NCBI RefSeq assembly: GCF_039536245.1
Contig: NZ_BAAAYN010000028.1
Location: 1-51,237 of the forward strand
Source: Cryptosporangium minutisporangium
GTDB taxonomy: Bacteria; Actinomycetota; Actinomycetes; Mycobacteriales; Cryptosporangiaceae
Direction of reading: 5' to 3'
Length of the DNA stretch: 51,237 bases
Positions 7,049 through 28,695 of this stretch are shown here, piece after piece. The notes under the pieces are model-generated. The model was not told the origin of the DNA and did not search any database. It saw nothing but the letters and a program-made list of their open reading frames with translations. The position numbers and the translations under genes were made by a program. The first letter of the stretch is position 1. Each line of letters begins with the position of its first letter.

Positions 7049-7440
7049 CGCCGCCGTCCGGCGATGAGTGAGACGGTGCGTGTGCGGGTCGCTGTGGTCG
7101 TTGGCTGCGATCCAACGTCTCCATCGGCCGTGTCTGCGGCGACGTAGAGCCGGCCTCCGGCTTCCCACACGTGGCGGCTCAGGGCTCGGGCAAGCAGGCT
7201 GTTGGGTGCCAGTTGCTCCCAGGAGATGACCAGCACTCCGTCGACGTCGCCGCGCTCGATCGCAGCCAGGCAGGCGCCGAAAGCTCCAGGCGCCGGGCCG
7301 TCGCTGATGCTTGCGCGGTAACAGGACACCAGGTCAATCCCGAGCCTACTCGCGGCGGTACGCAACGCCGCCAGATCGGGCGCGACGTCGGTAGCAGGCG
7401 CGGCATGAACGTAGCCCACGACGCGGGCCAGCGAGTTCAT
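7045..7440 (-). CDS. Serine-recombinase N-domain-like protein lacking catalytic residues
   Basis: A 131-aa protein. The start ATG at 7440 is preceded by GGAAGGGAGG, which makes it better than an upstream in-frame start at 7494. Residues 5-110 follow the resolvase/invertase catalytic-domain pattern: RVVGYVHAAP, then AASRLGIDLVSCYRA, then IERGDVDGVLVISWEQL. The YxRVS motif that carries the nucleophilic serine reads YVHAAP, and the later LDRLSR-like stretch reads WEQLAPN, so it should not cut DNA. There is no C-terminal DNA-binding domain. It may be a domesticated, regulatory or structural derivative; this is inference. It is divergent from the XRE-TPR regulator at 7664. Confidence 0.7.
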   Translation of the reverse strand: MNSLARVVGYVHAAPATDVAPDLAALRTAASRLGIDLVSCYRASISDGPAPGAFGACLAAIERGDVDGVLVISWEQLAPNSLLARALSRHVWEAGGRLYVAADTADGDVGSQPTTTATRTRTVSLIAGRRR

Positions 7441-7534
7441 GGCGCCCTCCCTTCCGTTTGCCGACACCGATGGGGGTGCGTCTCCACCTCGCATCGCGCC
7501 ACTGCACCGACTTCCGGCGCTATTCCCTTCGCAG

Positions 7535-7563
7535 TTGACTGATTGTGCTTACGCAGCCACGAT
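7535..7563 (+). promoter_or_regulatory. Candidate promoter of the first XRE-TPR regulator
   Basis: TTGACT at 7535-7540 and CACGAT at 7558-7563 are separated by 17 bp, giving a good -35 and a weak -10. The ACGAT part recurs upstream of the second regulator at exactly the same distance (28 bp, start to start) from GGAGGAGCCAG, whereas the -35 does not. If real, transcription starts just before the 12-bp repeats. Confidence 0.4.
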
Positions 7564-7590
7564 CTTCACCGCCCTGCCGCGGGTCCGGAG

Positions 7591-7621
7591 GAGCCAGCAG
7601 AGGGGCCAGTTAGGGGGCCAG
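7591..7621 (+). repeat. Three 12-bp tandem repeats (GAGCCAG / GGGCCAG / GGGCCAG) in regulator leader
   Basis: GAGCCAG starts at 7591, and GGGCCAG starts at 7603 and at 7615: an exact 12-bp period. The last copy ends 42 nt before the ATG of the regulator at 7664. The same three-copy block, with the same spacing and the same 42-nt distance to the start, precedes the paralogous regulator (11434-11464 on the other strand). It is most simply an operator, perhaps for autoregulation by these HTH proteins; this is inference. Confidence 0.75.
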
Positions 7622-7663
7622 CGGCGGACCGCCGCACGGCCAAGCGCGCCGAAGGGGGTACGG

Positions 7664-9193
7664 ATGGGAAATCGCAGCCCCGCGCGTGCCGAGTTCGGCA
7701 GCAGGCTAGCCGCGGCACGCTTACGCGCCGGCTACCCGACCCAGCAGGCCTGGGCCGACGCCCTCAACGACCTAGCCGAAACCCCCACCCTGACCCGCGC
7801 CGAAGTCGGTCGCTGGGAACGGGGCGTTCGGATCCCGGATGCGTGGCTTCCGTTGATCGCCGAGAGCCTCCGTGTTCCGCTGCCCGAGCTCAGACGTGCC
7901 GCAGCACGCGCTCGTGCCCGGACGCCTAGCGCCGTCGGAACCGCTACGTCGTCTAAACCATCGTCGGCGTCGCGTGGTGAGGGCGAGCCGGCCGTGGCAG
8001 CGCCTGCCTCCGCGGTTCTACCGGCCGTCCGGGCCGACGAGGGTCTCGACGTAGCCTGGGATGCCGCCGGGCTACGACAATTGCTGGAGGGCTGGTCGCA
8101 TCCAATGCTCGACCGACGCAGCTTTCTCACCATTGCGGGTGCCGCCCTGACCCAGCCGGCATGGCACGCGCTGGACCATCCAGTCCCGTCGCTTGCCGCA
8201 GGGCGGAGCTCGGAGGCCCGGGTCGAGGGCCGCTTGCTGGACCTGATCGAGGACATCGTCGCCCACGCCCAGCGCCTCGACGACCAGCAAGGCGGCGGCG
8301 CCGCCGACTTCGTCGAAGCGCAGTTCACCCACGTCGCACAGCTGCTGCGCCGCGCGAGCTACGACAGTCGGTCCGGGCGCCGGTTGGCGGCCGCTGCCGC
8401 GCAGCTGGCGCAGACGGCTGGGTTCATGGCCTATGACGCCGGGCGGGACGGCGCGGCGCAACGCTGGTACCTGACCGGATTGCGCGCGGCTCACGCCGCC
8501 GGGGACCCAGGGTTGTCGGCGAGCATCCTCGGGTTGATGAGCAATCAGGCCGTCACCCTCGGTCTGCGCGCTGATGCGACCCAGCTCGGGTCGGCCGCTG
8601 CCGAGTCGGCTTCCCATGCACCGCCGATAGTCCAAGCGCTGCTGGCCTCTCGAGGAAGCCTCGCGTACGCCGCGTCCGGCGACCTCACTGGCTACCGACA
8701 CGCCCTCGATCGGATCAGCAGCGCGCTGGGACGCGCCGAGACCGCTGGCGAGCCCGCGCCTCGCTGGGCCGCGTACGTGTCGGCGACCGAACTGGATGCC
8801 ATCACAGGGCGCGGAATGGTGCTGCTCGCCAGCCAGATGCCCACCCGCGCACCCCACCTGCTCGCCGAGGCCGAACAGCTTCTCACCGCGCGAGCCCACA
8901 CTGACCCCGACGAGGTCCCGCAACGATCCGCCCTGCGACACAGCGCCTGGCTCGCGCTCGTCCACGCCCAGACCGGTGACCTCGATCAGGCCGTCGCCGC
9001 CGGCCGGGCGTGCCTTCCGCGGCTGCGCACAGTCAACTCCGTACGCAGCGCACGATTGCTCGGTCGTCTGCGGCGGGAACTGGCACCGCACGCGTCCCGA
9101 TCCACAGCGGTCAGGCGGCTTCTCTCCGACCTCGACGCCCCTCTGTCCCCATCCGCCACGGCCGACTCCGGCAGTACCCGGATTAGCGGCTGA
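7664..9193 (+). CDS. XRE-type helix-turn-helix regulator with TPR-like C-terminus (paralogue 1)
   Basis: A 509-aa protein. I chose the ATG at 7664 because GAAGGGGG precedes it and the HTH begins directly after it; the frame is open further upstream but through leader DNA. Residues 8-75 form an XRE/Cro-like HTH (FGSRLAAARLRAGYPTQQAW then LTRAEVGRWERGVRIPDAWL). A variable linker follows, then DRRSFLTIAGAAL near 148-160, a motif common in this actinobacterial regulator family. The rest is Ala/Leu-rich helical hairpins typical of TPR. Such proteins usually control neighbouring secondary-metabolism or differentiation genes, and this one lies beside the NRPS operon. It is 42-nt downstream of three 12-bp repeats and shares close N-terminal similarity with the regulator at 10087-11391. 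Confidence 0.9.
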   Translation: MGNRSPARAEFGSRLAAARLRAGYPTQQAWADALNDLAETPTLTRAEVGRWERGVRIPDAWLPLIAESLRVPLPELRRAAARARARTPSAVGTATSSKPSSASRGEGEPAVAAPASAVLPAVRADEGLDVAWDAAGLRQLLEGWSHPMLDRRSFLTIAGAALTQPAWHALDHPVPSLAAGRSSEARVEGRLLDLIEDIVAHAQRLDDQQGGGAADFVEAQFTHVAQLLRRASYDSRSGRRLAAAAAQLAQTAGFMAYDAGRDGAAQRWYLTGLRAAHAAGDPGLSASILGLMSNQAVTLGLRADATQLGSAAAESASHAPPIVQALLASRGSLAYAASGDLTGYRHALDRISSALGRAETAGEPAPRWAAYVSATELDAITGRGMVLLASQMPTRAPHLLAEAEQLLTARAHTDPDEVPQRSALRHSAWLALVHAQTGDLDQAVAAGRACLPRLRTVNSVRSARLLGRLRRELAPHASRSTAVRRLLSDLDAPLSPSATADSGSTRISG

Positions 9194-9217
9194 CCCGACT
9201 GTGCTCGGCACTGCCCA

Positions 9218-10087
9218 TCAGGTGATGCTCGCTGGTCGGAGTAGGTCGATTCGCAGTTTGCCGCCGGCCTTTGCGACGCCGGTGACCTGGAAGCCGGTGA
9301 GGAGAGACTCGCGCAAGACCGGCGGATCGAGGGGGCACATCACGACCGCGCGGTCGATGAGACCCGCGGCGAGGAAGGCGGGCAGATGCTGTGGCTCGCC
9401 GAGGAGCAAGACTGTGCGTGCCCCGCCGGTGTAGAGGGTGGTGAGCAGGCAGGCAGGATCATTCATGCCCGCGTTCGTGGGCAGGGTAAGGACGTCGCGG
9501 CCGTGGCGGTTGGCCTCCTGCAGGCGGCCATCGGGATGGATGACTACGTCGACGCCGGCGCTCAGTTCGCGGATCAACGCGCCGTCGGTCACCGCACTGA
9601 TCCCATCTGCGGCGGCCTGGTAGGCCGCGGTCACTGTGGGGCGTCCGGTCGTCTGCGCAGTCAGCCACGGTCCGAGCACTACGGTGACCTCGTCGGCAAG
9701 GACGCCCACTTCAACCTCGACGCCGTGAGCGCGCAGGACGGCGGCGCCGCCCTCGCCGCGGGAAGTCGGATCGAGCACACCGATGACGACCCGGGCGACG
9801 CCAGCGTCCAGGAGCGCCTGTCGACAGGCCGGCGTGCGCCCGACGTGGTTACACGGTTCGAGGGTGACCACCGCGGTGCCGCCACGAGCGCGGTCCCCTG
9901 CGGCGGCGAGGGCCTGGGTTTCGGCGTGCGGTTCGCCTTTCCGAGCGTGCCAGCCCGTGCCGGCGGTCTGCCCGCCTGGGGTGAGGATGACGCAGCCAAC
10001 CGGCGGGTTCGGGCTGGTGCTGCCCAGCCCTGCTGCCGAGAGGACGAGCGCGTGACGCATCGCGTCGATCTCGACTGGTGTTGCCAC
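9218..10087 (-). CDS. RibD-like deaminase with divergent reductase half
   Basis: A 289-aa protein. The N-terminal 145 residues are a cytidine/guanine-type deaminase: the zinc site is in PHAET (His, catalytic Glu) and PCNHVGRTPAC (two Cys), as in RibD, which deaminates the pyrimidine intermediate of riboflavin synthesis. The C-terminal half (150-289) resembles the RibD reductase only loosely (TVTAAYQAAADGIS in place of the usual substrate-binding start) and is shorter than normal. It has probably lost or changed NADPH-dependent activity. The GTG start shares one base with the stop of the regulator upstream (TAG/GTG), so the two are coupled. Placement in a regulatory/NRPS locus, away from other rib genes, suggests a pathway-specific role such as heterocycle tailoring; that is inference. 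Confidence 0.85.
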   Translation of the reverse strand: MATPVEIDAMRHALVLSAAGLGSTSPNPPVGCVILTPGGQTAGTGWHARKGEPHAETQALAAAGDRARGGTAVVTLEPCNHVGRTPACRQALLDAGVARVVIGVLDPTSRGEGGAAVLRAHGVEVEVGVLADEVTVVLGPWLTAQTTGRPTVTAAYQAAADGISAVTDGALIRELSAGVDVVIHPDGRLQEANRHGRDVLTLPTNAGMNDPACLLTTLYTGGARTVLLLGEPQHLPAFLAAGLIDRAVVMCPLDPPVLRESLLTGFQVTGVAKAGGKLRIDLLRPASIT

Positions 10088-11391
10088 TACGCCGCTCCAG
10101 CATCGAGCGTGTCCAGAAGAGCGCGGACTTCGGAGACCGACGCCTGCGGGCGCAGGGTGTCCGCGAGTCGCGTGATCCCGGCGTGGATGCGGCCGGACCC
10201 GGTGGCCTGCGCGATCGGTAGCGCTTCCAGCGCCGCCGCCGCAGCCTGGTCCGGGTGCCCGGCACGGGCGTAGGCGACCGCCAGAGACACCTGACCGGCG
10301 GCCCGATCGCGCCGGTAAACCGGCGGCAGCGCGGGCAGAGCGCGCTCGTACTGGTCAATTGCCGCGTGAGCGCGGCCGGAAGCGAGGTAACAGCGGCCGC
10401 GCTGGAGCTCAATGTAGGCCGGAGTGCAGTACGAGCCGTGTCCGTAGCGGGCATCCCCGGCCACGTCGGTGCTCGCCAGCGCATGGGCCCCATCCAGCAG
10501 ACAAAGGGATTCCGCGGACCCGCCGCGCGCTGCCCGGACCGTGGCCTCGTGAACGAGAACGGCCGCGCGCATCGGTCCCGGCAGCTCTTCGTCGTCGCGC
10601 CTCGCCGCCTGCGCGAGTCCGAGCGCCTCGGCATGGTGACCACTTGCGGCAGCCTGCTGAGATCGGCGGAAGAGCGTCCAGGCGAGCATGACGTCATCAT
10701 GCGCCTGGTATGCCCACTCCATCGCCTGGGTGGTCCACCGGGCCGCGGCCGAGGGATCGTCGCTGTCCTCATACAGCCAAGCCGCGGACTCGGCGTAGCG
10801 AGCGGCGAGTCCGATCACCGCGGGACGCTTCGTCTCGCTGATCTCGGCAGCGAGCTCCTGAAGTATCGCCAGGTGACTGCTTACCCCGATCAGGGCGTGC
10901 CGTGGCCCAAGCAAATTGTCGGCCTTCACCAGCGCGTGCCACTGCTCATCCAGATAGACCAGCAGATCCTCAAGCGGCGCGCCGCTAAGGCCAGAAGACC
11001 GGCCAGGCGACGCACCGTCCTGGATAGGACCGAGAATTCCGATCGCGTCGGCACTCCACGCAGCAGTAGTCGATTCCGCGGAGGCGATCCCACGCCACGG
11101 GGGACCTCCCACGCTAGCGCTCGGACGGGGTCGGGCACGGCGGACGCGGGCCGCGGCGGCGGCCAGGTCCGCTAGCGGAACGTTGAGGCTCTCGGCTATC
11201 AACCCCAGCCAGGCATCCGGTACCCGGACACCCCGTTCCCACCGGCCAACCTCTGCACGCGTCAACGTCGCGGCTCCGGCCAAACCGTTGAGAGCATCCG
11301 CCCACGCCTGCTGGGTCAGATAGCCAGCATTCAAGCGCGCCGCGGCCAGCCAAGCCCCGAACCGGGCCCGCGCCGGGTTCGCCGCCGCCAT
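10087..11391 (-). CDS. XRE-type helix-turn-helix regulator with TPR repeats (paralogue 2)
   Basis: A 434-aa protein from the ATG at 11391 (GGAAGG upstream). The first 80 residues closely match paralogue 1: FGAWLAAARLNAGYLTQQAW and LTRAEVGRWERGVRVPDAWL give the HTH. The C-terminal 300 residues are TPR-like helical pairs (for example HAAIDQYERALPALPP and HPDQAAAAALEALPIAQATG). The C-terminal halves of the two paralogues are much less alike, so they may sense different partners while reading the same DNA repeats. It is in an operon with the RibD-like deaminase and convergent with paralogue 1. The three 12-bp repeats lie 42 nt before its start. Confidence 0.9.
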   Translation of the reverse strand: MAAANPARARFGAWLAAARLNAGYLTQQAWADALNGLAGAATLTRAEVGRWERGVRVPDAWLGLIAESLNVPLADLAAAAARVRRARPRPSASVGGPPWRGIASAESTTAAWSADAIGILGPIQDGASPGRSSGLSGAPLEDLLVYLDEQWHALVKADNLLGPRHALIGVSSHLAILQELAAEISETKRPAVIGLAARYAESAAWLYEDSDDPSAAARWTTQAMEWAYQAHDDVMLAWTLFRRSQQAAASGHHAEALGLAQAARRDDEELPGPMRAAVLVHEATVRAARGGSAESLCLLDGAHALASTDVAGDARYGHGSYCTPAYIELQRGRCYLASGRAHAAIDQYERALPALPPVYRRDRAAGQVSLAVAYARAGHPDQAAAAALEALPIAQATGSGRIHAGITRLADTLRPQASVSEVRALLDTLDAGAA

Positions 11392-11433
11392 ACCTAAGCA
11401 ACCTTCCTGCCGCCGGCCTCTGACAGTGCCCTG

Positions 11434-11464
11434 CTGGCCCCTCAACTGGCCCCGTTTCTGGCTC
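11434..11464 (-). repeat. Three 12-bp tandem repeats upstream of paralogue 2
   Basis: On the minus strand GAGCCAG (11464-11458), GGGCCAG (11452-11446) and GGGCCAG (11440-11434) recur every 12 bp, ending 42 nt before the ATG at 11391. A longer shared block GGAGGAGCCAG leads the array in both copies, and ACGAT lies 28 bp (start to start) upstream in both. Sequence between the repeats and the ATG has diverged while its length has not. Confidence 0.75.
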
Positions 11465-11670
11465 CTCCGCAATCGCAGACGACCCAGGAGCATCGTCGCA
11501 CGGAAATAGGCGATGGACGGTGACGCGTACGCCGGGAAGGGCTGCAGCAACCCGCTGGGGGCTGTCCCCCGCTACCGCGTCGTCCGTCAGCCGCAGGTTT
11601 CCATCGCTCTCGCGCTGCTTGTCACTCCTCCTATCTGTTCGATTTCTCAGTGATTGGGGTCTTCAGCGTC

Positions 11671-13158
11671 ATGTCCGACCGGGACGGTCAGTTACAGGAA
11701 TTCGGATATTCCCAGCAGCTACGCCGGGAGCTGCGGTTGCGGCATCTACTGGCCTATGGGCTGGTGTTCATGGTGCCTATTGCGCCGATGGCAATCTACG
11801 GCTCGGTGTATGCCGCCTCGGGCGGCATGGTCGTCGGCGCGTACATCGTCGGCGTGGTGGCGCTGGGGTTCACCGCCTGGTCCTACGCGCAGATGGTCGA
11901 TGCCTTTCCCCTTTCGGGCAGCGTCTATAACTTCGCCGGCCGCGGGATCAGCGCGCCGGTCGGATTCCTCGCGGGGTGGATGATCCTGCTGGACTACATC
12001 CTCGTCCCCACGCTGCTGTACCTGGTGGCGTCGGTGGCGTTGCACGCGACCGTTTCGGTGGTGCCGGTCTGGGTGTGGCTGATCGGGTTCGTCGCCGCGA
12101 ACACCGTGATCAACACCCGCGGTATCAAGGTCACCGCCCGGTTCACGATCCTGATGCTCGCCGCCGAACTCGCGGTCCTGGCCCTCTACCTCGGGATCGG
12201 GATCTGGGCGGTCGCGACGGGCAAGGGCCAGTTCAGTTTCGATCCGCTGTTCAACACGGACACATTCACCTGGTCCCTGCTGCTCGGCGCCGCCGCGGTC
12301 GCGGTGTTGAGTTTCCTCGGGTTCGACGCAATCTCCACCCTCGCCGAGGAATCCCGCGGCGGATCCCGGGCGGTAGGCCTGGCGATGGCCGCCGCGCTCG
12401 GATTGGCCGGGGTGCTGTTCATCGCCCAGACCTGGGTCGCGGCGATGCTCACTCCCGACGGAGCCGCGCTGGTGGCCGGCGGTGACCCGGAGGGCACCGC
12501 GTTCTACGACACCGCGCGGGCCGCGGCCGGGCCGTGGCTGGCCACAGTCTGTGCGGTCGCGACCGCGATCGCCTGGGGGCTGCCGGACTCGATGGTCGCG
12601 CAGGTCGCGGTGTCCCGGCTCCTGTTCGCGATGGCCCGCGACAAGCAACTCCCGTCGTTCCTGGCGAAGGTCTCGCGGCGGCACAACGTGCCCACCAACG
12701 CGATCCTCCTCGTCGCCGTCCTCTCTCTGGGCCTGGGGCTGGTAATGGCCGCCCGCGCCGACGGGATCACCGTGCTGGCCGGCCTGATCAACTTCGGGGC
12801 GCTCACCGCGTTCCTCACGCTGCACGCCGCGGTGGTCTGGTACTACCTGATCCGCCGCCGCAGCCGCCGCTGGATCGCCCACCTGCTGATGCCGCTGACC
12901 GGCGCCGCGATCCTGATCGCCGTCATCCTCAACGCCAACATCTGGGCGCAGCGCCTCGGCGGCGCCTGGATCACCCTCGGCCTGATCATTCTCGCGATCC
13001 TGTATGCGACCGGGCGCCGCCCGCAGCTGTCCGGGTTCACCCCCACCGGCGGTGGCCACACGACCACGCTCCCCAACCCCGCCGGATCGCGGTCCAACGG
13101 GTCCCCTCACGCCGGACCCCACCAGCCCGGCGCCCACCAGGCGGGAGCACACCGGTGA
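11671..13158 (+). CDS. APC-superfamily amino acid/amine permease
   Basis: A 495-aa integral membrane protein with about 12 hydrophobic segments from residue 25 on. It has the TM1 region HLLAYGLVFMVPIAPMAIYG and the conserved TM6-region block FLGFDAISTLAEES characteristic of APC permeases. The start is placed at ATG 11671 rather than the GTG at 11650, which has no ribosome site; GGGG lies about 14 nt upstream of the ATG. The C-terminal tail is His/Pro/Gly-rich (HAGPHQPGAHQAGAHR), unusual and possibly metal-binding. The stop overlaps the amidase GTG in GTGA. Import of an amide-, amine- or amino-acid-type substrate for the next enzyme is a reasonable inference. Confidence 0.92.
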   Translation: MSDRDGQLQEFGYSQQLRRELRLRHLLAYGLVFMVPIAPMAIYGSVYAASGGMVVGAYIVGVVALGFTAWSYAQMVDAFPLSGSVYNFAGRGISAPVGFLAGWMILLDYILVPTLLYLVASVALHATVSVVPVWVWLIGFVAANTVINTRGIKVTARFTILMLAAELAVLALYLGIGIWAVATGKGQFSFDPLFNTDTFTWSLLLGAAAVAVLSFLGFDAISTLAEESRGGSRAVGLAMAAALGLAGVLFIAQTWVAAMLTPDGAALVAGGDPEGTAFYDTARAAAGPWLATVCAVATAIAWGLPDSMVAQVAVSRLLFAMARDKQLPSFLAKVSRRHNVPTNAILLVAVLSLGLGLVMAARADGITVLAGLINFGALTAFLTLHAAVVWYYLIRRRSRRWIAHLLMPLTGAAILIAVILNANIWAQRLGGAWITLGLIILAILYATGRRPQLSGFTPTGGGHTTTLPNPAGSRSNGSPHAGPHQPGAHQAGAHR

Positions 13159-21720: not shown

Positions 21721-22413
21721 ATGGCATCCACAGCGTTGAGCTCCTCCGCGCCGCACGCTCCCCAGCGCTCACCCGCGGAGTTCTCGGGTCGATCTCGGCG
21801 GCGTCGCCCCGCGTGGCTGATCGGCGGCGCCGTCCTGGTGGTGATGTGTGCGTTGGGGTCGGCGTTCTGGTGGTCGCACACCTCCGGGCGCGTCGCAGCA
21901 CTCGCGGTCGCGACGAACGTACCGGCGGGACAGGTCATCACCGACCGGGATCTGCAGACGGTGCAGGTGGCCGCCGACTCGAGCGTCAGCCTGGTCCGCG
22001 CCTCCGAACGCAACACCGTGGTCGGGCAGACCGCCGCCGTGCCGCTGACCGCGGGCTCCCTACTCAGCGCGGCGATGCTCGGCGCTCCGGCGCCGCCGGC
22101 CACAGGTCAGGCGGTGGTGGCCGTGTCGGTGGATCCCGGCCGGTTCCCGCCGGCGCTAACGGCCGGTTCGACCGTCACCGTCGTCGCCGCTAAGTCCGGC
22201 GACACTGTAGCGGGCTCGGCGACGCCCGGCGCCGCTCCGGCCGCGCCGGAGCGGAGCGGCCAGCGCTGGCCGGGCGTGGTGCTCGCGGTGGATCCGGCCG
22301 TCGATGGGCGCGGCGGAGCGGTGGTGACGCTGCGAATGGCCGCCGCGGACGCCCCCGACGTAGCCGCGGCCGGGCCGGTGGCGCTGGTCCAGCGGCATCC
22401 CGGAGAGAACTGA
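21721..22413 (+). CDS. SAF-domain protein (CpaB/RcpC-like)
   Basis: A 230-aa protein: basic N-terminus, one transmembrane helix (about 31-50, WLIGGAVLVVMCALGSAFWW), then a SAF domain (about 58-120; LAVATNVPAGQVITDRDLQTV, then TAAVPLTAGSLLSAAML) followed by an RcpC-like beta-rich part. CpaB/RcpC proteins are periplasmic or cell-surface parts of Tad machines in Gram-negatives. Here, in a presumed single-membrane cell, it would face the wall. GAGGACGG precedes the ATG. The stop shares its last base with the next ATG. The 96-bp gap upstream (21625-21720) shows nothing. Confidence 0.85.
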   Translation: MASTALSSSAPHAPQRSPAEFSGRSRRRRPAWLIGGAVLVVMCALGSAFWWSHTSGRVAALAVATNVPAGQVITDRDLQTVQVAADSSVSLVRASERNTVVGQTAAVPLTAGSLLSAAMLGAPAPPATGQAVVAVSVDPGRFPPALTAGSTVTVVAAKSGDTVAGSATPGAAPAAPERSGQRWPGVVLAVDPAVDGRGGAVVTLRMAAADAPDVAAAGPVALVQRHPGEN

Positions 22414-23513
22414 TGCCACTGATCGTGTGGGCTTCGGCGTCCGGGGCGCCGGGGGTGACGAGCACCGCGCTGGCAGTGACCGCCGCGTGGCCGGCCCTCG
22501 CCCGCCTGGAACCGGTCACGCCAGACGAAGGAAGCTCAGCGCCCATCCTGGTGGAGGCCGACCCCTACGGCGGGGACCTCGCGGCGCGATTCCGGGCGGG
22601 TGAGGAACCGGGTCTGGCGGGACTCGCGGCAGCCGCGCGGTCTCCGCGCGGCCCGGACGAGATGGCCGCGATGACGCGCTCCTACGCGCGGACACTCGGG
22701 GGCACTCAGCTGGTGACCGCGCCGGTCGGCTCGGGCCAGACCCGAGCCGCGCTGAGTATTCTCGCCGCCCCAGGGGGGCCGCTCGCGGTGGCCGGTCTGG
22801 CCGCGACGCCGCTGCTGATCGACGCCGGGCGGCTGTCACCGGCCTCACCGATCGTGCCGCTGCTGCCCTCGGCGGACCTGATCGTGCTCGTGACCCGGAC
22901 CGGTCTGGCCGAGCTGGCCCACACCCGGGAGCTGGCCGCGAACCTCACCCGTCTCAATCCCTCCCGGCAGGTGCTGCTGCGCGGACCGAACCCCTACCCT
23001 GCCCACGAGGTCGCCGCGCAGCTCGGTATACCGCTGCTGGGCTGCGTGCCCGATGACCGCCGCGCCGCCACGAGCCCGTTTCCGGATCGTTGGCGGCGGC
23101 GCGGGAAGTGGGTTCGCGCGATCACCGCAGTCGCGGCCCAATTGGCCGACGAGATCAGCACCGGGCACCCGCGATCGGCCGCCCTGGGCAGGCCGTCCGA
23201 CCGGTACCGCGCCGGGGCGGCGCCGCGCATCGGCGTCACCGGCGGCACTCCTCCAGCGGCGGGAGACACCCCGCTAAGGGATGATCTCCCGGAGCAGAGT
23301 GGCGTCCCGAGCCGGGGTGGCCTTCCGGCGGGTGCGGCGTGGCCGGCGCCGGCTGCGCCCCGGTGGCCGGTACCGGCGCAGCGCATGCCTACGGGCAGCC
23401 GGGCACCCGCTGCACCCGCCCCCACGCTCCCCGGCGCCTCCGGAGGCCCCGACGTACCCAGCTCACCGGGCAACGAGGCCGCGCCGCCGGCACCGACCAG
23501 GAGGCCGTCGTGA
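22413..23513 (+). CDS. TadZ/CpaE-like MinD-family protein with defective P-loop
   Basis: A 366-aa protein. Residues 1-240 resemble the MinD/ParA-type fold of TadZ/CpaE. The P-loop position reads ASGAPGVTSTALAV, i.e. the usual GKT/GKS lysine is missing, so ATP hydrolysis is doubtful. LVEADPYGGDLAARF (about 45-60) corresponds to the Asp-containing switch, and LIVLVTRTGLAELAHTREL follows later. The last 120 residues are Pro-rich and disordered. TadZ localises Tad pili at the pole or membrane and helps recruit TadA. Its stop overlaps the TadA GTG (GTGA). Confidence 0.8.
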   Translation: MPLIVWASASGAPGVTSTALAVTAAWPALARLEPVTPDEGSSAPILVEADPYGGDLAARFRAGEEPGLAGLAAAARSPRGPDEMAAMTRSYARTLGGTQLVTAPVGSGQTRAALSILAAPGGPLAVAGLAATPLLIDAGRLSPASPIVPLLPSADLIVLVTRTGLAELAHTRELAANLTRLNPSRQVLLRGPNPYPAHEVAAQLGIPLLGCVPDDRRAATSPFPDRWRRRGKWVRAITAVAAQLADEISTGHPRSAALGRPSDRYRAGAAPRIGVTGGTPPAAGDTPLRDDLPEQSGVPSRGGLPAGAAWPAPAAPRWPVPAQRMPTGSRAPAAPAPTLPGASGGPDVPSSPGNEAAPPAPTRRPS

Positions 23514-24937
23514 CCGCCGGACCACCCGCCGACGGGAGCAGGCCTCCATCCTCGTGGGCCCCGGTCAACGGGGCGGCGCCTCCCACCGCGACTTCTCATC
23601 CGGCAGCAGCGCCGCCACCGTCGCTATCGGGAGCCGACGTCGTCATGGCGCTGCGGCAACAGGTCGCCGAACGGCTAACCGCCCGTAGCCGCGCCGCAGA
23701 CCAAAGCGGTGAGCCGCCCTGGACGCCCGAGCGGCGCCGCGGGGAAGCCGAGGTGTTGCTCGCGCAGCTGTTGCAGGAGCAGGCCACCGCGGCGATCAGC
23801 GCCGGCCGGGCCCCCCGGAACCCCGCCGCCGACCAGGCGTTGAGCGTGCGGGTGCTGGACGCGTTATTCGGGATGGGTGGCCTGCAGCCGCTGCTGGCCG
23901 ACCCGCAGATCGAGAACATCAACGTCAACGGCTGCGATGTCGTGCACGTCCGCTACGCCGACGGGACACGCGCCCGGGTCGCGCCCGTGGCCGGGAGCGA
24001 CGCTGAACTCGTCGAGCTCATCCGGGCGATCGCCGCCCGCGCCGGAGTGGAGGAACGCCGTTTCGACCGCGGCGCGCCCACACTCTCGGTTCAGTTACCG
24101 GACGGGTCCCGGTTGTTCGCGGTGATGGCCGTGACCGCCCGTCCTTCCCTCGCGATTCGCCGCCATCGCCACCGCACCGCCACCCTGCGGGATCTCCAGC
24201 GGCTGGGCACCATTGACCCCGGCCTGGACGCTTTCTTGTCCGCGGCGGTGCGGGCGCGGCGCAACATCATCGTGTCCGGCGGCATGGCCGCCGGGAAAAC
24301 CACCGTTCTGCGCGCCCTGGCCAGCGCCATCGACCCGTCCGAACGGCTGGTCACCGTCGAGGATGCCCTCGAGCTGGGTCTGAACACCGACGCCCGGGCG
24401 CATCCGGACGTGGTGGCGATGCAGGCCCGCGACCGCAACATCGAAGGCGAAGGGCAGATCACCGCCGCCGACCTGGTGCGGGCGGCGCTGCGCATGTCCG
24501 CCGACCGGGTCATCGTCGGCGAGGTCCGCGGCTCGGAGGTGATCCCGATGCTCTCGGCGATGTCCCAAGGCAACGACGGGTCCATGGCCACCCTGCACGC
24601 ATCCAGCTCCCAGCAGGTGTTTCTCAAGCTGGCCGCGTACGCGGTGCAGGCCGCCGAGCGGCTGCCGCTGGAGGCCACCGGACTGCTGGTCGCCTCCGCC
24701 GTCCACCTCGTCGTCCACCTGGAAACCACTCCGGGCGGGCAGCGTGTCGTGGCCAGCGTCCGGGAAGTCGTCGGCGCTGAGGGCGCGCAAGTGGTGTCCA
24801 ACGAGCTCTACAAGCCCAGCGGCGACAAACGCGCCCGCCCCCACGTCCCGCCCAGCGAAGAACTCCTCACCGCCCTGACCGCGACCGGCTTCGACCCCAA
24901 GTGGCTGCACAACCCTGACGGGTGGTGGCCCTCATGA
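23510..24937 (+). CDS. tadA: TadA/CpaF secretion ATPase
   Basis: 475 aa from GTG 23510, directly after AGGAGG. The Pro/Ala-rich N-terminus (1-45) leads to the CpaF-type N-domain and a RecA-like core: Walker A GGMAAGKTT at about 257-265, acidic VTVEDALELGL, Walker B-like RVIVGEVRGSEV (about 330-341), and the His box TLHASSS (about 363-369). It powers assembly of the Flp pilus at the cytoplasmic membrane. All catalytic motifs look intact. It is embedded in tadZ-A-B-C order with 4-base overlaps. This is the most certain call in the operon. Confidence 0.97.
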   Translation: MTAGPPADGSRPPSSWAPVNGAAPPTATSHPAAAPPPSLSGADVVMALRQQVAERLTARSRAADQSGEPPWTPERRRGEAEVLLAQLLQEQATAAISAGRAPRNPAADQALSVRVLDALFGMGGLQPLLADPQIENINVNGCDVVHVRYADGTRARVAPVAGSDAELVELIRAIAARAGVEERRFDRGAPTLSVQLPDGSRLFAVMAVTARPSLAIRRHRHRTATLRDLQRLGTIDPGLDAFLSAAVRARRNIIVSGGMAAGKTTVLRALASAIDPSERLVTVEDALELGLNTDARAHPDVVAMQARDRNIEGEGQITAADLVRAALRMSADRVIVGEVRGSEVIPMLSAMSQGNDGSMATLHASSSQQVFLKLAAYAVQAAERLPLEATGLLVASAVHLVVHLETTPGGQRVVASVREVVGAEGAQVVSNELYKPSGDKRARPHVPPSEELLTALTATGFDPKWLHNPDGWWPS

Positions 24938-25875
24938 CTCTGGATGCCTCGACCGCGCTGGCGGGTCTGCTCGGCGCCGGCATCGGTCTGGGACTCGTGC
25001 TGTTCCTCCTCGGACTGATCGGTACCACCACGGAGCCGTCCGCGCGGGCCGCATGGAGACCGAACGCCGGCGGCGGCCGGCGTATGCCGGTGCGCGCCCA
25101 CGGGCGCCGGATCGCCCTGGCCTTCGCCGGTGGGCTGCTCGCGGTGCTGGTCACCCGCTGGCCGGTCGCGGGCCTGCTCGCCGCCGCCGCGGTCTGGTTC
25201 GCGCCCGCGGTCCTGGGACCCGACCGGGCCACCGCCGGGTCGGTCGCCCGCGCCGAGGCCATCGCCACCTGGGCCGAAATGCTGCGAGACACCCTGCAGG
25301 CCGCCGCCGGCCTCGAACAAGCACTCCTGGCCACCGCCCCGGCCGTCCCCGCGCCGATCCGCGCCGAGGTGGCGGCGCTCGCGGCGCGGATCCGCGGCGG
25401 GCAACACCTTCCGGCGGCCCTGCGCGCCGCCGCGGACGATTTCGACGACCCGACCGCCGATCTTGTGCTCGCCGCGCTGCTGCTGGCCGCCGAACATCAG
25501 GCCCGTCAACTCGGTCCGCTGCTCTCGGATCTGGGCGACGCCGCGCGGCAGCAGGCGACCGTGCAGCTACGGCAGGCCGCCGAACGCGCCCGCACCCGCA
25601 CCTCCGTGCGAGTCATCACCGCCACCACCCTCGCGATGGCCGCCGGGCTGGTGCTGCTCAACCGCAGCTACCTCCAGCCGTATGACACCACCGCCGGGCA
25701 GCTCGTCCTCGCCACCGTCGGCGCCCTCTTCGCGGCCGGGTTCTGGTGGCTGACCCGGCTCGCCCGCCCGCAGGCCCCCGCCCGCCACCTCGCGCTCAGC
25801 CCTCCGGGCGCAACCGGCGGGCAGACGCGCGGCCCGGCCGTCCCCGCGACCCCGCCCGGAGGTGAGCGACGGTGA
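24934..25875 (+). CDS. tadB: TadB-like inner-membrane platform protein
   Basis: 313 aa from the ATG overlapping the tadA stop. Hydrophobic segments at about 8-30, 60-90, 230-250 and 258-280 flank a cytoplasmic type II secretion F domain (MLRDTLQAAAGLEQALLATA ... LLLAAEHQARQLGPLLSDLG). With TadC it forms the membrane platform on which the ATPase acts. Length and topology agree with actinobacterial TadB proteins. The C-terminal 35 residues are Pro/Gly-rich. The stop overlaps the tadC GTG. Confidence 0.92.
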   Translation: MTLDASTALAGLLGAGIGLGLVLFLLGLIGTTTEPSARAAWRPNAGGGRRMPVRAHGRRIALAFAGGLLAVLVTRWPVAGLLAAAAVWFAPAVLGPDRATAGSVARAEAIATWAEMLRDTLQAAAGLEQALLATAPAVPAPIRAEVAALAARIRGGQHLPAALRAAADDFDDPTADLVLAALLLAAEHQARQLGPLLSDLGDAARQQATVQLRQAAERARTRTSVRVITATTLAMAAGLVLLNRSYLQPYDTTAGQLVLATVGALFAAGFWWLTRLARPQAPARHLALSPPGATGGQTRGPAVPATPPGGERR

Positions 25876-26780
25876 TCGTGCCCCTGCTGCTCGGCGCCGG
25901 CATCGGTCTGGGCCTGATGGTGATCGCCGCCGGAATCTGGCCACCCAAACCGTCGCTCGCCGACGAACTCGCCGCACTCCACGCGCCACCAACGTCCGCG
26001 CCCCTCGCGTCCTTCGCGGCGCCGGCAGAGACGGCCGGATGGGCGGCCCGGTTGGGACGACCGGCCGTGCCGCTCCTCGAAGCCGCCGGACTACCCCGCA
26101 CGAGTGTCCGCGCCGACCTCGCGGTCCTCGGCCGCCCACCCCAGCTGCACCTGGCCGAACAGGCCGCCACCGCCCTAGCCGGATTGTTCCTTCCTCCGCT
26201 GGTCGCCGCGCTGACCGCGCTGGCCAGCCTGCACTGGGGCTGGACCCTGCCGCTGTGGATCGCTCTCGCCCTGGCCGCCGGCGGGTTCCTCCTGCCCGAC
26301 CTGGCCATCCACACCGAAGCCGGCCGACGCCGCGCCGAGTTCCGCCACGCCCTGTCCTCCTACCTCGACCTGGTCGTCATCTCGCTGGCCGGCGGCGCCG
26401 GCGTGCAGGCCGCCCTGCACTCCAGTGCGCAGATCGGCACCGGCTGGGCCAACCACCGGATCCGCGACGCCCTCCAGGAGGCAGCGCTCACTCCGGGCCT
26501 CACACCCTGGCAAGCCTTGGGCCGTCTCGGCGCCGAACTCGGCATCACCGACCTGACCGAGCTCGCGGCCACCGTCTCCCTCGCCGGCACCGAAGGCGCC
26601 AAGATCCGCACCTCCCTGCGGGCCCGCGCCGCCTCCCTCCGCGGACACCTATTGGCCGACCTGGACGCCGCCGGCGCGTCGGCGACCGAACGCATGAGCA
26701 TCGGCGTCGTCGCCCTCTTCGCCGCGTTCCTCCTCTTCCTCGCCTACCCCGCGATCAGCCACGTCCTCACCGGGCTCTAG
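25872..26780 (+). CDS. tadC: TadC-like inner-membrane platform protein
   Basis: 302 aa from GTG 25872 (GTGA overlap). N-terminal membrane helix at 2-22 (LLLGAGIGLGLMVIAAGIW), paired helices around 95-140, a type II secretion F domain (YLDLVVISLAGGAGVQAALH ... LTDLTELAATVSLAGTEGAK), and a C-terminal helix ending FLLFLAYPAISHVLTGL. It shares its opening LLGAGIGLGL with tadB, indicating common origin. It is the partner of TadB. The small pilin gene follows after 14 bp with its own ribosome site. Confidence 0.92.
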   Translation: MIVPLLLGAGIGLGLMVIAAGIWPPKPSLADELAALHAPPTSAPLASFAAPAETAGWAARLGRPAVPLLEAAGLPRTSVRADLAVLGRPPQLHLAEQAATALAGLFLPPLVAALTALASLHWGWTLPLWIALALAAGGFLLPDLAIHTEAGRRRAEFRHALSSYLDLVVISLAGGAGVQAALHSSAQIGTGWANHRIRDALQEAALTPGLTPWQALGRLGAELGITDLTELAATVSLAGTEGAKIRTSLRARAASLRGHLLADLDAAGASATERMSIGVVALFAAFLLFLAYPAISHVLTGL

Positions 26781-26794
26781 AAAGGACAGCCGCC

Positions 26795-27019
26795 GTGCAC
26801 TCGATGTTCGCCAGGCTCGCCGACCACGTCGGCCGTGGCTCCCGGCGCCTCGCCGCGCCGCTGAGCGACCGACTACGTCGACGGGTACCGCGCGGCGAGG
26901 CCGGCTACAGCACCGAGACCGTTCTGGTCACCGCGCTGCTCGTGGCGCTGGCCATCGCGGTCCTCGGCATCATCGCCGCCAAGGTGCTGGCCAAAGCCAA
27001 CGCCATCAACCTCGGCTGA
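26795..27019 (+). CDS. Flp-type pilin candidate
   Basis: A 74-aa protein; AAAGGA lies 8 nt before the GTG, preferred over the ATG at 26804. A basic 33-residue leader precedes a prepilin-like site, GEAG followed by YSTETVLV, and a single 22-residue hydrophobic helix (VTALLVALAIAVLGIIAAKV). This is the size and layout of an Flp major pilin. Counting from the likely cleavage after AG, the glutamate falls at +4 rather than the usual +5, while the two TadE proteins downstream have +5. It has its own strong ribosome site, fitting the need for many copies. Confidence 0.8.
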   Translation: MHSMFARLADHVGRGSRRLAAPLSDRLRRRVPRGEAGYSTETVLVTALLVALAIAVLGIIAAKVLAKANAINLG

Positions 27020-27036
27020 ACCCGGGGTCCGAACCG

Positions 27037-27510
27037 ATGCCGAGCCCACTGCACACCGCCAGCCTCAGGCCACGCCCGGCGCCACCACGGCGCCTGCTGA
27101 TCCGCGCCCTACGCAGCGGTTCAGGCCGCGGTTCGGATCGGGGTGCGGTCTCCGCCGAGTTGGCGCTCGCCACGCCGCTGCTGCTTCTGCTGCTAATGCT
27201 GGTCGTGCAGGCGGCCCTGGCCTGGCACGCCGTTCACGTCGCCGACGCCACAGTGACCCGCGCCGCGGACGCCGCCCGCCTGTCAGGCGCCACGGACGCC
27301 GACGGCCAGGCCGCCGCTGCCACGCTCACCGAGCAGCTCGGCTCCGGGCTACTCACCGACGTGCAGGTCACGGTCAGCCGCTCCGGCGGGCAGGTCACCG
27401 TCGAACTGACCGCCCACACCCCCACCGTGGTGCCCGGCCTGACCTGGACCGTGCACCGGCACGCCACCGCCCCCATCGAACAACCCACCGAGCCCGGCGG
27501 CGCCCCATGA
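27037..27510 (+). CDS. TadE-like minor pilin 1
   Basis: A 157-aa protein. An Arg-rich leader of about 45 residues ends RG before AVSAELAL, a prepilin-type site with Glu at +5, followed by a hydrophobic helix (ATPLLLLLLMLVVQAALAWH). The C-terminal part is a Thr/Val-rich beta-type domain (VQVTVSRSGGQVTVELTAHT). TadE pseudopilins are processed by the Tad peptidase and help pilus assembly. Its stop overlaps the ATG of the next, related gene. Confidence 0.85.
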   Translation: MPSPLHTASLRPRPAPPRRLLIRALRSGSGRGSDRGAVSAELALATPLLLLLLMLVVQAALAWHAVHVADATVTRAADAARLSGATDADGQAAAATLTEQLGSGLLTDVQVTVSRSGGQVTVELTAHTPTVVPGLTWTVHRHATAPIEQPTEPGGAP

Positions 27511-27974
27511 CCCCGCCCCGGCTCGGCCCAGCACGGCGGCGCGTTGCACGCCCCTTCCGCCGCGGGCCTCGGCGGGAGGCGGGTTCGATCACCGTTGAAC
27601 TGACCCTGCTGACCCCGCTCGTGCTGCTCTTCGTGCTCCTGGTGGTCGCTGCCGGGCGACTCGCCGACGCCCAGGCCCGCATCGACCAGGCCACCTACAC
27701 CGCCGCCCGCGCCGCCTCCCTCAGCCGCGACCCAGCCACTGCGACCAACACCGCCCGGGAAAGCGCGACCGCCGCCCTCGACCAGCCCGCCGCCTGCGCA
27801 GCCCTCGACGTCACCGTCGACACCACCGCCTACACCCCCGGAGGCAGCGTCACCGTGCACACCACCTGCGTGGTGAACCTGGCCGACCTCACCGGACTCG
27901 GGCTCCCCGGCAGCCGAACGCTGAGCAGCAGCTCCACCTCGCCGCTCGACAGATTCCGGGCGGTCACCCCATGA
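27507..27974 (+). CDS. TadE-like minor pilin 2
   Basis: A 155-aa protein with the same build as its neighbour: a basic leader to residue 26, the site EAG before SITVELTL (Glu at +5), a hydrophobic helix, then a short domain with two cysteines (AACAALDVTVD and VHTTCVVNLADL) that could form a disulfide once outside. Both starts and stops overlap the neighbours by 4 bases. Paralogous TadE pairs are usual in actinobacterial Tad loci. Confidence 0.85.
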   Translation: MTPPRLGPARRRVARPFRRGPRREAGSITVELTLLTPLVLLFVLLVVAAGRLADAQARIDQATYTAARAASLSRDPATATNTARESATAALDQPAACAALDVTVDTTAYTPGGSVTVHTTCVVNLADLTGLGLPGSRTLSSSSTSPLDRFRAVTP

Positions 27975-28498
27975 CCGCGCACCGGCACCCCAACGACCTG
28001 CGTACCCGCAGCCAGCGCCGCCCCGGCCGGCTCGGTCACGGCCCGCGTCCCCGCAGTCTGCGTGCCCGCGGCCAACGCGCCGGCCGCGGCCGTCGCTGGG
28101 GTGAGGACGGGCAGGCCACCGCGTTCCTCGCCGTCCTGGTCCTCGCGCTCCTGCTGCTGGCCGGCCTCGTGCTCGACGGGGGCGTGGCGCTGGCGGCGCG
28201 GACCTGCGCGCTGGATGCCGCCCAGTCCGCGGCTCGCGCCGGCGCCCAGCAACTTGACCTGCCGCTCTACCGCGCCACCGGTCAGCTGCGTCTGGACCCC
28301 GCCCAGTCCCTCCGCGCCGCGCAAGACTTCCTCGCCGCAGCTGGGACGCCGGGGGAGGTCACCGCCACCACCGCAGCGGTCACCGTCACCACGCACACCG
28401 ACCGGCCCGCGCAGCTGCTGCAACTCGTCGGGGTGGACACGCTGCGGGCCGCCGGCACCGCGACCGCTACCCCCACCGCCCCCGGGAACCAGCCATGA
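27971..28498 (+). CDS. TadG-like minor pilin
   Basis: A 175-aa protein. An Arg-rich leader (about 50 residues) ends EDG before QATAFLAVLV, a prepilin-like site in which the +5 glutamate is replaced by Phe, as is common for TadG-like proteins. A hydrophobic helix (LVLALLLLAGLVLDGGVAL) and an Ala-rich helical domain (LDAAQSAARAGAQQ) follow. It is the last clear pilin-type gene of the operon. Its stop overlaps a possible small ORF. Confidence 0.8.
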   Translation: MTAHRHPNDLRTRSQRRPGRLGHGPRPRSLRARGQRAGRGRRWGEDGQATAFLAVLVLALLLLAGLVLDGGVALAARTCALDAAQSAARAGAQQLDLPLYRATGQLRLDPAQSLRAAQDFLAAAGTPGEVTATTAAVTVTTHTDRPAQLLQLVGVDTLRAAGTATATPTAPGNQP

Positions 28499-28695
28499 GC
28501 GCGCTCCGGCCCGGATCGTGGGCGCCACCGGCACCCGCACGCGCACCGGCTCTCGGCACCCCCGCCGGTCGCCGACGGCAACCGGTCCTGGCGCACCGGA
28601 GCCTGCTGGGGTCCTTGACACAACTGCCGCAGATAGGCGGCGCGTGCACCGCGGGTCAGGCCGCCGGCCGACCGCAACGGCGAAGGAGACCATGA
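28495..28695 (+). CDS. Doubtful 66-aa ORF between TadG-like gene and LysM-BTAD gene
   Basis: The only support is position: its ATG overlaps the TadG-like stop (ATGA) and its stop overlaps a possible next ATG at 28692 (ATGA again), the same junction used all along this operon. The peptide (MSALRPGSWAPPAPARAPAL ...) is Pro/Arg/Ala-rich, has no hydrophobic helix and resembles nothing I know. It could be a translational bridge rather than a functional protein. Confidence 0.35.
   Translation: MSALRPGSWAPPAPARAPALGTPAGRRRQPVLAHRSLLGSLTQLPQIGGACTAGQAAGRPQRRRRP

Follow-up and report, generated by a model that had tools for sequence, protein, structure and literature searches.

Two paralogous regulators of the XRE helix-turn-helix (HTH) type, XRE1 and XRE2, are encoded in a 51,237-nucleotide stretch of DNA from Cryptosporangium minutisporangium (contig NZ_BAAAYN010000028.1; the whole stretch is called the window here), and each is preceded by an array of three short direct repeats. 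The question raised by this locus is what the repeats are for and which protein reads them. The reading favored here is that the repeats are probably an autoregulatory operator, situated downstream of the promoter, for these NsdA-type regulators and for related XRE regulators in other genomes. The case was built by computational analysis of the window, of the home genome, and of the genomes in which related HTH domains occur.

Repeat arrays in the home genome

The repeats read GAGCCAG-GGGCCAG-GGGCCAG with a 12-bp period at 7591-7621 (plus strand) and 11464-11434 (minus strand), in both cases with zero mismatches to GRGCCAG-N5-GRGCCAG-N5-GRGCCAG; the mean number of matches expected at three or fewer mismatches is 0.02 (100 dinucleotide shuffles of the window). 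An earlier sequence-only reading of this DNA called the two arrays identical, which is right for the pattern and spacing but not for the DNA itself, as the 5-bp spacers differ. The remaining geometry it described is exact on both leaders: the gap from last repeat to ATG is 42 nt for XRE1 and XRE2 alike, ACGAT (at 7559 before XRE1 and 11496 before XRE2) starts exactly 28 bp before the start of GGAGGAGCCAG, and the 23 bp separating these two blocks have diverged with their length kept (10/23 positions equal). Searched across the whole 9.23-Mb genome, (GRGCCAGN5)3 in its exact form is restricted to these two places.

Two further leaders lie on another contig of the genome, C42, which was found by a search for the two-repeat form together with a search for paralogous HTHs. 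The third leader (C42:27417-27482) precedes the paralogue XRE3; its first period is 11 bp and its last repeat lies 45 nt from the start codon. The fourth (C42:29156-29220, minus strand) is an orphan that lies on the opposite strand, facing the 3′ end of XRE3, with no XRE gene seen behind it. The 28-bp distance from ACGAT is kept in both. The orphan resembles XRE2 in the spacer (13/23 alike) and was probably the leader of an XRE2 counterpart that has since been lost. Overlapping the third site of the orphan array (L055:12145-12190, minus strand of C42) is a perfect 18-bp palindrome, GGCCAGCACGTGCTGGCC. A sequence profile made from the four home leaders (R1) matches, in the 9.23-Mb genome, the four leaders only (E 2.4e-17 to 1.8e-14; next at 0.037), with single lone sites standing outside this count.

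All three sites point along the gene in 3/3 home genes with an array, and no inverted repeat of at least 7 nt spans the sites in any of the four leaders. The XRE1 and orphan leaders have one inverted repeat each that is confined to the third site and the sequence past it. An inverted repeat GCGGCGG-A-CCGCCGC lies at 7621-7635, directly 3′ of the third XRE1 site; nothing like it was found in the XRE2 and XRE3 leaders.

The four-fold degenerate sites of the HTH regions of XRE1, XRE2, and XRE3 match at 18/44, 16/46, and 14/46, against 31% for base composition alone. In all six leader pairs GGAGGAGCCAG is nevertheless kept at 11/11 and ACGAT at 5/5, while the 23-bp spacer between them has 5 to 13 matching positions; the stretch holding the -35 box is alike at 11/15 positions between XRE1 and XRE3. 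Age alone would erase the sites, and the four-fold sites are near chance identity with the repeats intact, so the comparison supports a real array under selection, as the sequence-only reading had argued.

Arrays in other genomes and their HTH partners

At E 1e-6 the HTH was found in none of four other genomes of the Cryptosporangiaceae, and at E 1e-15 in one other genome, G616, among 394 of the class. Before the G616 gene stand GGGGCCGG, GGGGCCAG, and GGGGCCAG, the latter two at 11 and 23 bp; R1 missed this array. An order-wide HTH search gave matches in 66/397 genomes (own included), with 29 further loci (L068-L096, distant HTHs) in which the profile R2 (below) found no array. A strict scan of contigs with HTH peptide patterns gave one weak Streptomyces match of 60.

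Family f31 (341 genomes) was picked on account of the motif in its member G616, so the comparison that counts is the one of strong with weak HTH relatives inside the family. Searched with five HTHs, f31 had 107 matches, spread over 81 genomes; 70 of the 107 loci were read: 40/42 at 88.6 bits or above and 30/65 at 85.2 bits or below (the two strong loci outside the reading are G959:C81, contig start, and G999:C32, stop). The array in this family takes the form AGGAGCC(T/A)G-12-GGGGCCAG-11-GGGGCCAG. At least two sites in register occur within 200 nt upstream at 33/70 loci, for which shuffles that permute 2-base blocks, and so are no true dinucleotide shuffle, expect 0.16 and the reversed motif gives 2, the loci being mutually related. 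Divided by HTH score, 31/40 strong loci have an array vs 2/30 weak ones. Selection of the arrays tabulated required two sites with no more than one mismatch, which makes conservation within sites partly a product of construction; outside the picking rule, ACT follows directly after the third site in 27/27 arrays of period 11. The 31 arrays listed point along the gene, having been picked on that strand.

A second profile, R2, was built from 18 f31 arrays only, without home sequences. On the window and C42 its top four matches coincide with the home leaders (E 1.4e-5 to 4.5e-3, the fifth match being at 0.21), with the XRE2 array ranked first (E 1.4e-5) and the XRE1 array second (E 1.9e-4). In the 341 f31 genomes R2 gives 40 matches at E ≤ 0.01, of which 34 are followed, 21-64 bp further along the same strand, by an HTH match; these comprise 18 training sequences and 16 new ones, some close to training sequences. 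One R2 scan of f31 used stricter filters, which lose weak matches. The other six matches are at contig ends (two) or elsewhere (four). Of the latter four, two are probably real orphan arrays with no XRE gene seen behind them, L264 (G616:C67:11918-11949, minus) and L265 (G981:C137:3670-3702, plus; a tRNA-Ala gene lies about 190 bp off), and it is possible that they are remnants of excised or decayed elements. Weak matches away from an HTH are L266 and L267, the latter within a long open frame.

At E 1, R2 finds nothing in 70 control loci with distant order HTHs, NsdA loci, or plasmid regulators (302,495 bases). The 30 weak f31 HTH loci yield one strong array with this profile (L207, 33.2 bits), plus three weak matches. 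Nine strong loci lacked a site pair, and eight were tested with R2 (L169 was left out): L192, L199, L202, and L203 have an array, L187 and L189 have weak pieces, and L168 and L197 have nothing. An HTH tree was made from 70 of 74 rows (the 70 loci read and XRE1-4), leaving out L169 (contig end), L182 and L195 (duplicates), and L207 (short; array by a weak HTH). Arrays occur in 32/45 rows on one midpoint side, including XRE1-3, and in 1/25 on the other; the midpoint root serves for drawing and the 45/25 fork is drawn open. Array presence requires 9 changes on the tree vs a mean of 23.5 for shuffled labels, with 0/500 shuffles as low.

The contrast within f31, the blind recovery of the home leaders by R2, and the HTH-linked R2 matches thus support the earlier proposal that the operator is common to several regulators. 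A scatter of the pattern over the genome, unconnected with promoters, would have spoken against the proposal; checked with the sequence profiles, it did not emerge, and it is the short repeat pattern alone that is unspecific. The exact triple is not diagnostic by itself: 13 other genomes of 101 (own included) match, 12/13 with simple or near-exact tandem repeats by eye, and the match in G097 is less regular; all 13 were set aside.

Which half of the regulator the array follows can be read from an HTH-AAA_33 fusion. The protein of L272:5616-6545 is 53% identical over the first 99 residues to the tetratricopeptide repeat (TPR)-type protein of L270:7355-8590, with nothing convincing beyond; the C-terminal parts of this protein and of that at L185:1492-2400 are P-loop domains that match AAA_33 and, weakly, zeta toxin (2/2 tested). 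The array of L272:5616-6545 is AAGGAGCCTGACAGGGGGCCAGTAGGGGGCCAGACT. Because the fusion shares only the HTH with the TPR type, the array, on present sequence evidence, goes with the HTH and not with the sensor half.

Putative promoter, proposed mechanism, and alternatives

The element TTGACT-17-CACGAT, a putative promoter, ends 23 bp before the array of XRE1 and XRE3. No TTGAC box lies within 90 nt before XRE2, and none was found for the orphan. In f31, a TTGAC box is present in the 90 nt upstream of 13/31 arrays (none in the reversed control), and the hexamer 17 or 18 bp past it is TTCCAT in 10 of the 13. The sites are thus downstream of a -10-like element, in keeping with the probable 5′ leader to which the sequence-only reading assigned them.

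Under the operator reading, transcription would start just downstream of CACGAT, and three GRGGCCAG-type sites, oriented along transcription and 11-12 bp apart, would occupy about +17 to +52 of the leader. The XRE HTH domains would bind these sites, likely as a row of head-to-tail subunits, and the bound HTHs would stop RNA polymerase from leaving the promoter or passing the array; a block to promoter escape or elongation would fit better than exclusion of polymerase, given that the sites of both families would be transcribed as part of the leader. Synthesis of the regulator, and of the RibD-like protein encoded behind XRE2, would be kept low until the C-terminal half senses something. As the recognition helices and sites of XRE1, XRE2, and XRE3 are the same, the three would be expected to cross-regulate one another. 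We infer HTH binding, the head-to-tail mode, repression, and the roadblock from this arrangement.

The transcribed position could also suit a leader that acts as RNA, in which a protein or the ribosome would recognize the GGGGCCAG or GGAGG repeats of the mRNA and so control translation or termination; in part of f31 the last site even fuses with the Shine-Dalgarno sequence. The leaders have no conserved fold, however (z-scores +1.1, -1.1, -0.7, and -0.4, with differing structures), and a search of window 7300-11700 against Rfam gave nothing at E 0.1. The array-to-start distance is variable (42, 42, and 45 nt in the home genome vs about 1 to 25 nt in the f31 loci checked, e.g., L164 and L191) and the array tracks the clade of a DNA-binding domain, which together make control through RNA quite improbable.

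It is likewise unlikely, if somewhat easier to envisage, that the repeats are bound by a different regulator, such as an activator of the SARP/BTAD type or a protein of the host, and are carried along with the gene. The direct repeats bound by SARPs are heptameric, and PimR even has three of them (accessible part of PMC5930380); the window itself has a BTAD gene (28062-31655), the product of which has a relative on C42 with 72% identity. In published descriptions the SARP site ends 8 bp ahead of a -10 element (accessible part of PMC10936776), but no shared -10-like sequence is found at that place by eye in the four leaders (CGCCGC, TGTCAG, CCTCGT, and GGCCGC); this test is not absolute, since the PimR operator departs from the usual -35 overlap. 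The BTAD gene is about 20 kb distant, and the sites are linked to the XRE HTH clade over different C-terminal domains and families.

Several observations weigh against an operator read by the HTH of the regulator itself. XRE-type HTHs usually dimerize on palindromes, and no palindrome spans the three sites. TTGAC boxes occur before two of the four home leaders only, and before 13 of the 31 f31 arrays; four of 40 R2 matches lie away from an HTH of this kind; XRE4 (49% HTH identity, L055:2115) clusters with XRE1-3 yet is without an array; and two weak HTH relatives, L207 and L224, carry one. With regard to the repeat pattern itself, in the home genome the triple at three or fewer mismatches gives 23 matches vs 143 for the backward control, and the exact two-repeat form gives 13 vs 18 for its control; the genome being GC-rich, these looser forms are not special. 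Upstream DNA may also simply travel with its gene, in which case linkage is no proof that this HTH is the bound protein.

Regulators, element context, and comparison with known systems

The features of the locus are collected in Table 1. By the NCBIfam cut-off (NF053720, curated at 75 bits) XRE1-3 are members of the NsdA family, XRE3 scoring 196.6 bits. They are not NsdA itself as judged by the equivalog models: against NF050130 (NsdA, cut-off 830) XRE1 scores 100.2 and XRE3 99.7 bits with no match for XRE2, and against the NsdB equivalog (cut-off 700) XRE1 scores 57.4 bits. XRE2 and XRE3 are 73% and 72% identical to XRE1 in the HTH, and XRE1 and XRE3 are 69% identical over the whole protein. 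The sequence-only reading had proposed that regulators with different sensor halves share an operator; the shared operator is supported, while the C-terminal halves of XRE1 and XRE2 are related, both being of the NsdA family. A structure model of XRE1 (mean confidence score, pLDDT, 70; below 50 at 87-188) has five helices at 6-84 and helical repeats at 189-491 with a low-confidence link between them, and a structure search with it gave general TPR resemblance only, with none at E ≤ 0.001. A Tat-signal-like motif, RRSFLTIAG.ALTQPAW, occurs mid-protein, ahead of the TPR part, in XRE1 (window 8110-8170) and XRE3.

Table 1. Features of the XRE1-XRE2 locus (window coordinates)
Feature	Position	Strand	Remarks
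-35-like TTGACT of XRE1	7535..7540	+	17 bp before CACGAT; same pair and spacing before XRE3
-10-like CACGAT of XRE1, containing ACGAT	7558..7563	+	xACGAT at same 28-bp distance in 4 leaders
Putative operator array 1	7587..7621	+	sites 7590-7597, 7602-7609, 7614-7621
XRE1, HTH + NsdA-family TPR regulator	7664..9193	+	NCBIfam NF053720, 213.5 bits
RibD-like deaminase gene	9218..10087	-	TIGR00326, 166.6 bits (cut-off 156.35), first 160 model positions
XRE2, HTH + diverged NsdA-family TPR half	10087..11391	-	NF053720, 149.4 bits
Putative operator array 2	11434..11468	-	three sites, 12-bp period
-10-like GACGAT of XRE2	11492..11497	-	same 28-bp distance

The RibD-like gene and the XRE2 stop codon have one base in common. 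A regulator followed by a gene of the RibD/dihydrofolate reductase family recurs in 7/8 plasmid regions retrieved from the XRE2 search, including SLP2 and pSCL2 (the regulator counted in L158 and L159 is a protein homologous to the TPR half and carries a hypothetical annotation); the pair is absent in L163 and in both regions taken from the XRE1 search. The recurrence of such pairs on plasmids of Streptomyces points to a conserved operon of regulator and enzyme.

The window and C42 share a small gene before XRE1 (62% identity), which lies outside the left array, as well as five genes of a Tad-like cluster at 72-91% and one neighbor at 41%. The duplicated cluster, downstream of both regulator loci (window 21721-31655; C42:38626-48613), encodes an SAF protein, a T2SSE (CpaF-like) ATPase, TadE, the BTAD protein, and the product of a gene at 25872-26780 (91% identical). 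Both loci thus derive from one duplicated region, and the arrays flank XRE1-RibD-XRE2 head to head, as might be expected of a non-functional leftover of duplication or of inverted end repeats of a mobile cassette. Against this, the array sites are intact where four-fold sites are near saturation, the shared gene beyond the left array means that the arrays are not borders of the copied piece, and the f31 loci viewed have one array ahead of the gene and no flanking pair; such an origin is considered very improbable.

Several f31 members of the clade lie beside mobile-element genes. A scan with family models, covering ten proteins from four f31 loci and the window, found a recombinase and a pSAM2-type RepSA initiator (E 3.6e-165) in L270, an integrase-like gene barely above its cut-off in L125, and FtsK/SpoIIIE, GntR, and DUF2637 genes in L272; no replication or integrase gene was seen among the part of the window genes scanned. 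Similarity to plasmid and phage DNA reached at best E 0.4 and 2 among the matches listed, and viral contigs had no exact home-form pattern, a pattern that would miss f31-type arrays. Integrative and conjugative elements of Frankia are reported to carry NsdA-like XRE genes (accessible part of PMC3218068). Tentatively, the HTH clade and its triple-repeat leader might form one evolving cassette that spreads across actinobacterial mobile elements with exchange of the C-terminal half (NsdA-type TPR or AAA_33/zeta-like domain) and acts, through HTHs bound head to tail, by an elongation block like that of the phage stoperators discussed below; coexisting elements with the array in common, orphan copies among them, would cross-silence one another as a form of inter-element immunity; we regard this as possible rather than likely.

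The arrays provide a predicted binding site for a clade of regulators, and exchange of sensor halves behind a fixed HTH-operator pair would offer a natural system in which to study regulator rewiring and effects between elements within one cell. Direct-repeat operators are known, but this operator, its clade, and the sensor swapping were not found described in the literature searched: open-literature searches (by topic, nsdA, and the string GGGGCCAG), judged by title and start of abstract and largely missing subscription papers, found no description of the operator among the papers listed. To our knowledge, direct-repeat arrays downstream of the promoter are unusual for XRE proteins.

The closest relatives by family are NsdA and NsdB of Streptomyces. 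XRE1-3 resemble them in scoring above the NF053720 cut-off and differ in that XRE1 falls far under both equivalog cut-offs and has a different HTH. NsdA of S. rimosus binds promoter DNA in electrophoretic mobility shift assays; no direct-repeat operator was seen for it in the accessible part of the report, the main text of which has no word starting with "autoregul" (PMC12243394). The plasmid NsdA-type regulators (SLP2 and others) share with XRE2 the RibD/reductase-type gene that follows and have a candidate operator just before the gene, but their HTH is different and their candidate sites are palindromes instead of direct repeats, starting 46-50 nt before the annotated start in 4/5 HTH-bearing plasmid genes scanned (L156, L160, L161, and L162). 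Examples of these palindromes are GTGTATCCAG-CCG-CTGGATACAC and ATGTGGCC..GGCCACAT, with half-sites loosely like GNNNCCAG.

In arrangement the arrays resemble the operators of SARPs, whose DNA-binding fold is unrelated to the XRE HTH. From the source text available, AfsR and PimR use heptameric direct repeats, two or three in number and spaced about one helical turn apart, but AfsR-type repeats overlap the -35 box and activate, whereas the home repeats are downstream of the likely -10 element. BldC forms head-to-tail oligomers on direct repeats (accessible part of PMC5859096), the mode proposed here for the XRE HTHs; BldC, in contrast, is a MerR-like protein. A parallel to the suggested block is provided by the stoperators of mycobacteriophage L5, asymmetric sites in one orientation along transcription that are bound by an HTH protein and for which an elongation block was proposed (accessible part of PMC9283540). 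The home sites are likewise asymmetric and have one orientation relative to transcription; the L5 sites, however, are 13-mers present at more than 20 per genome, whereas those described here form arrays with an 11-12-bp period in four leaders.

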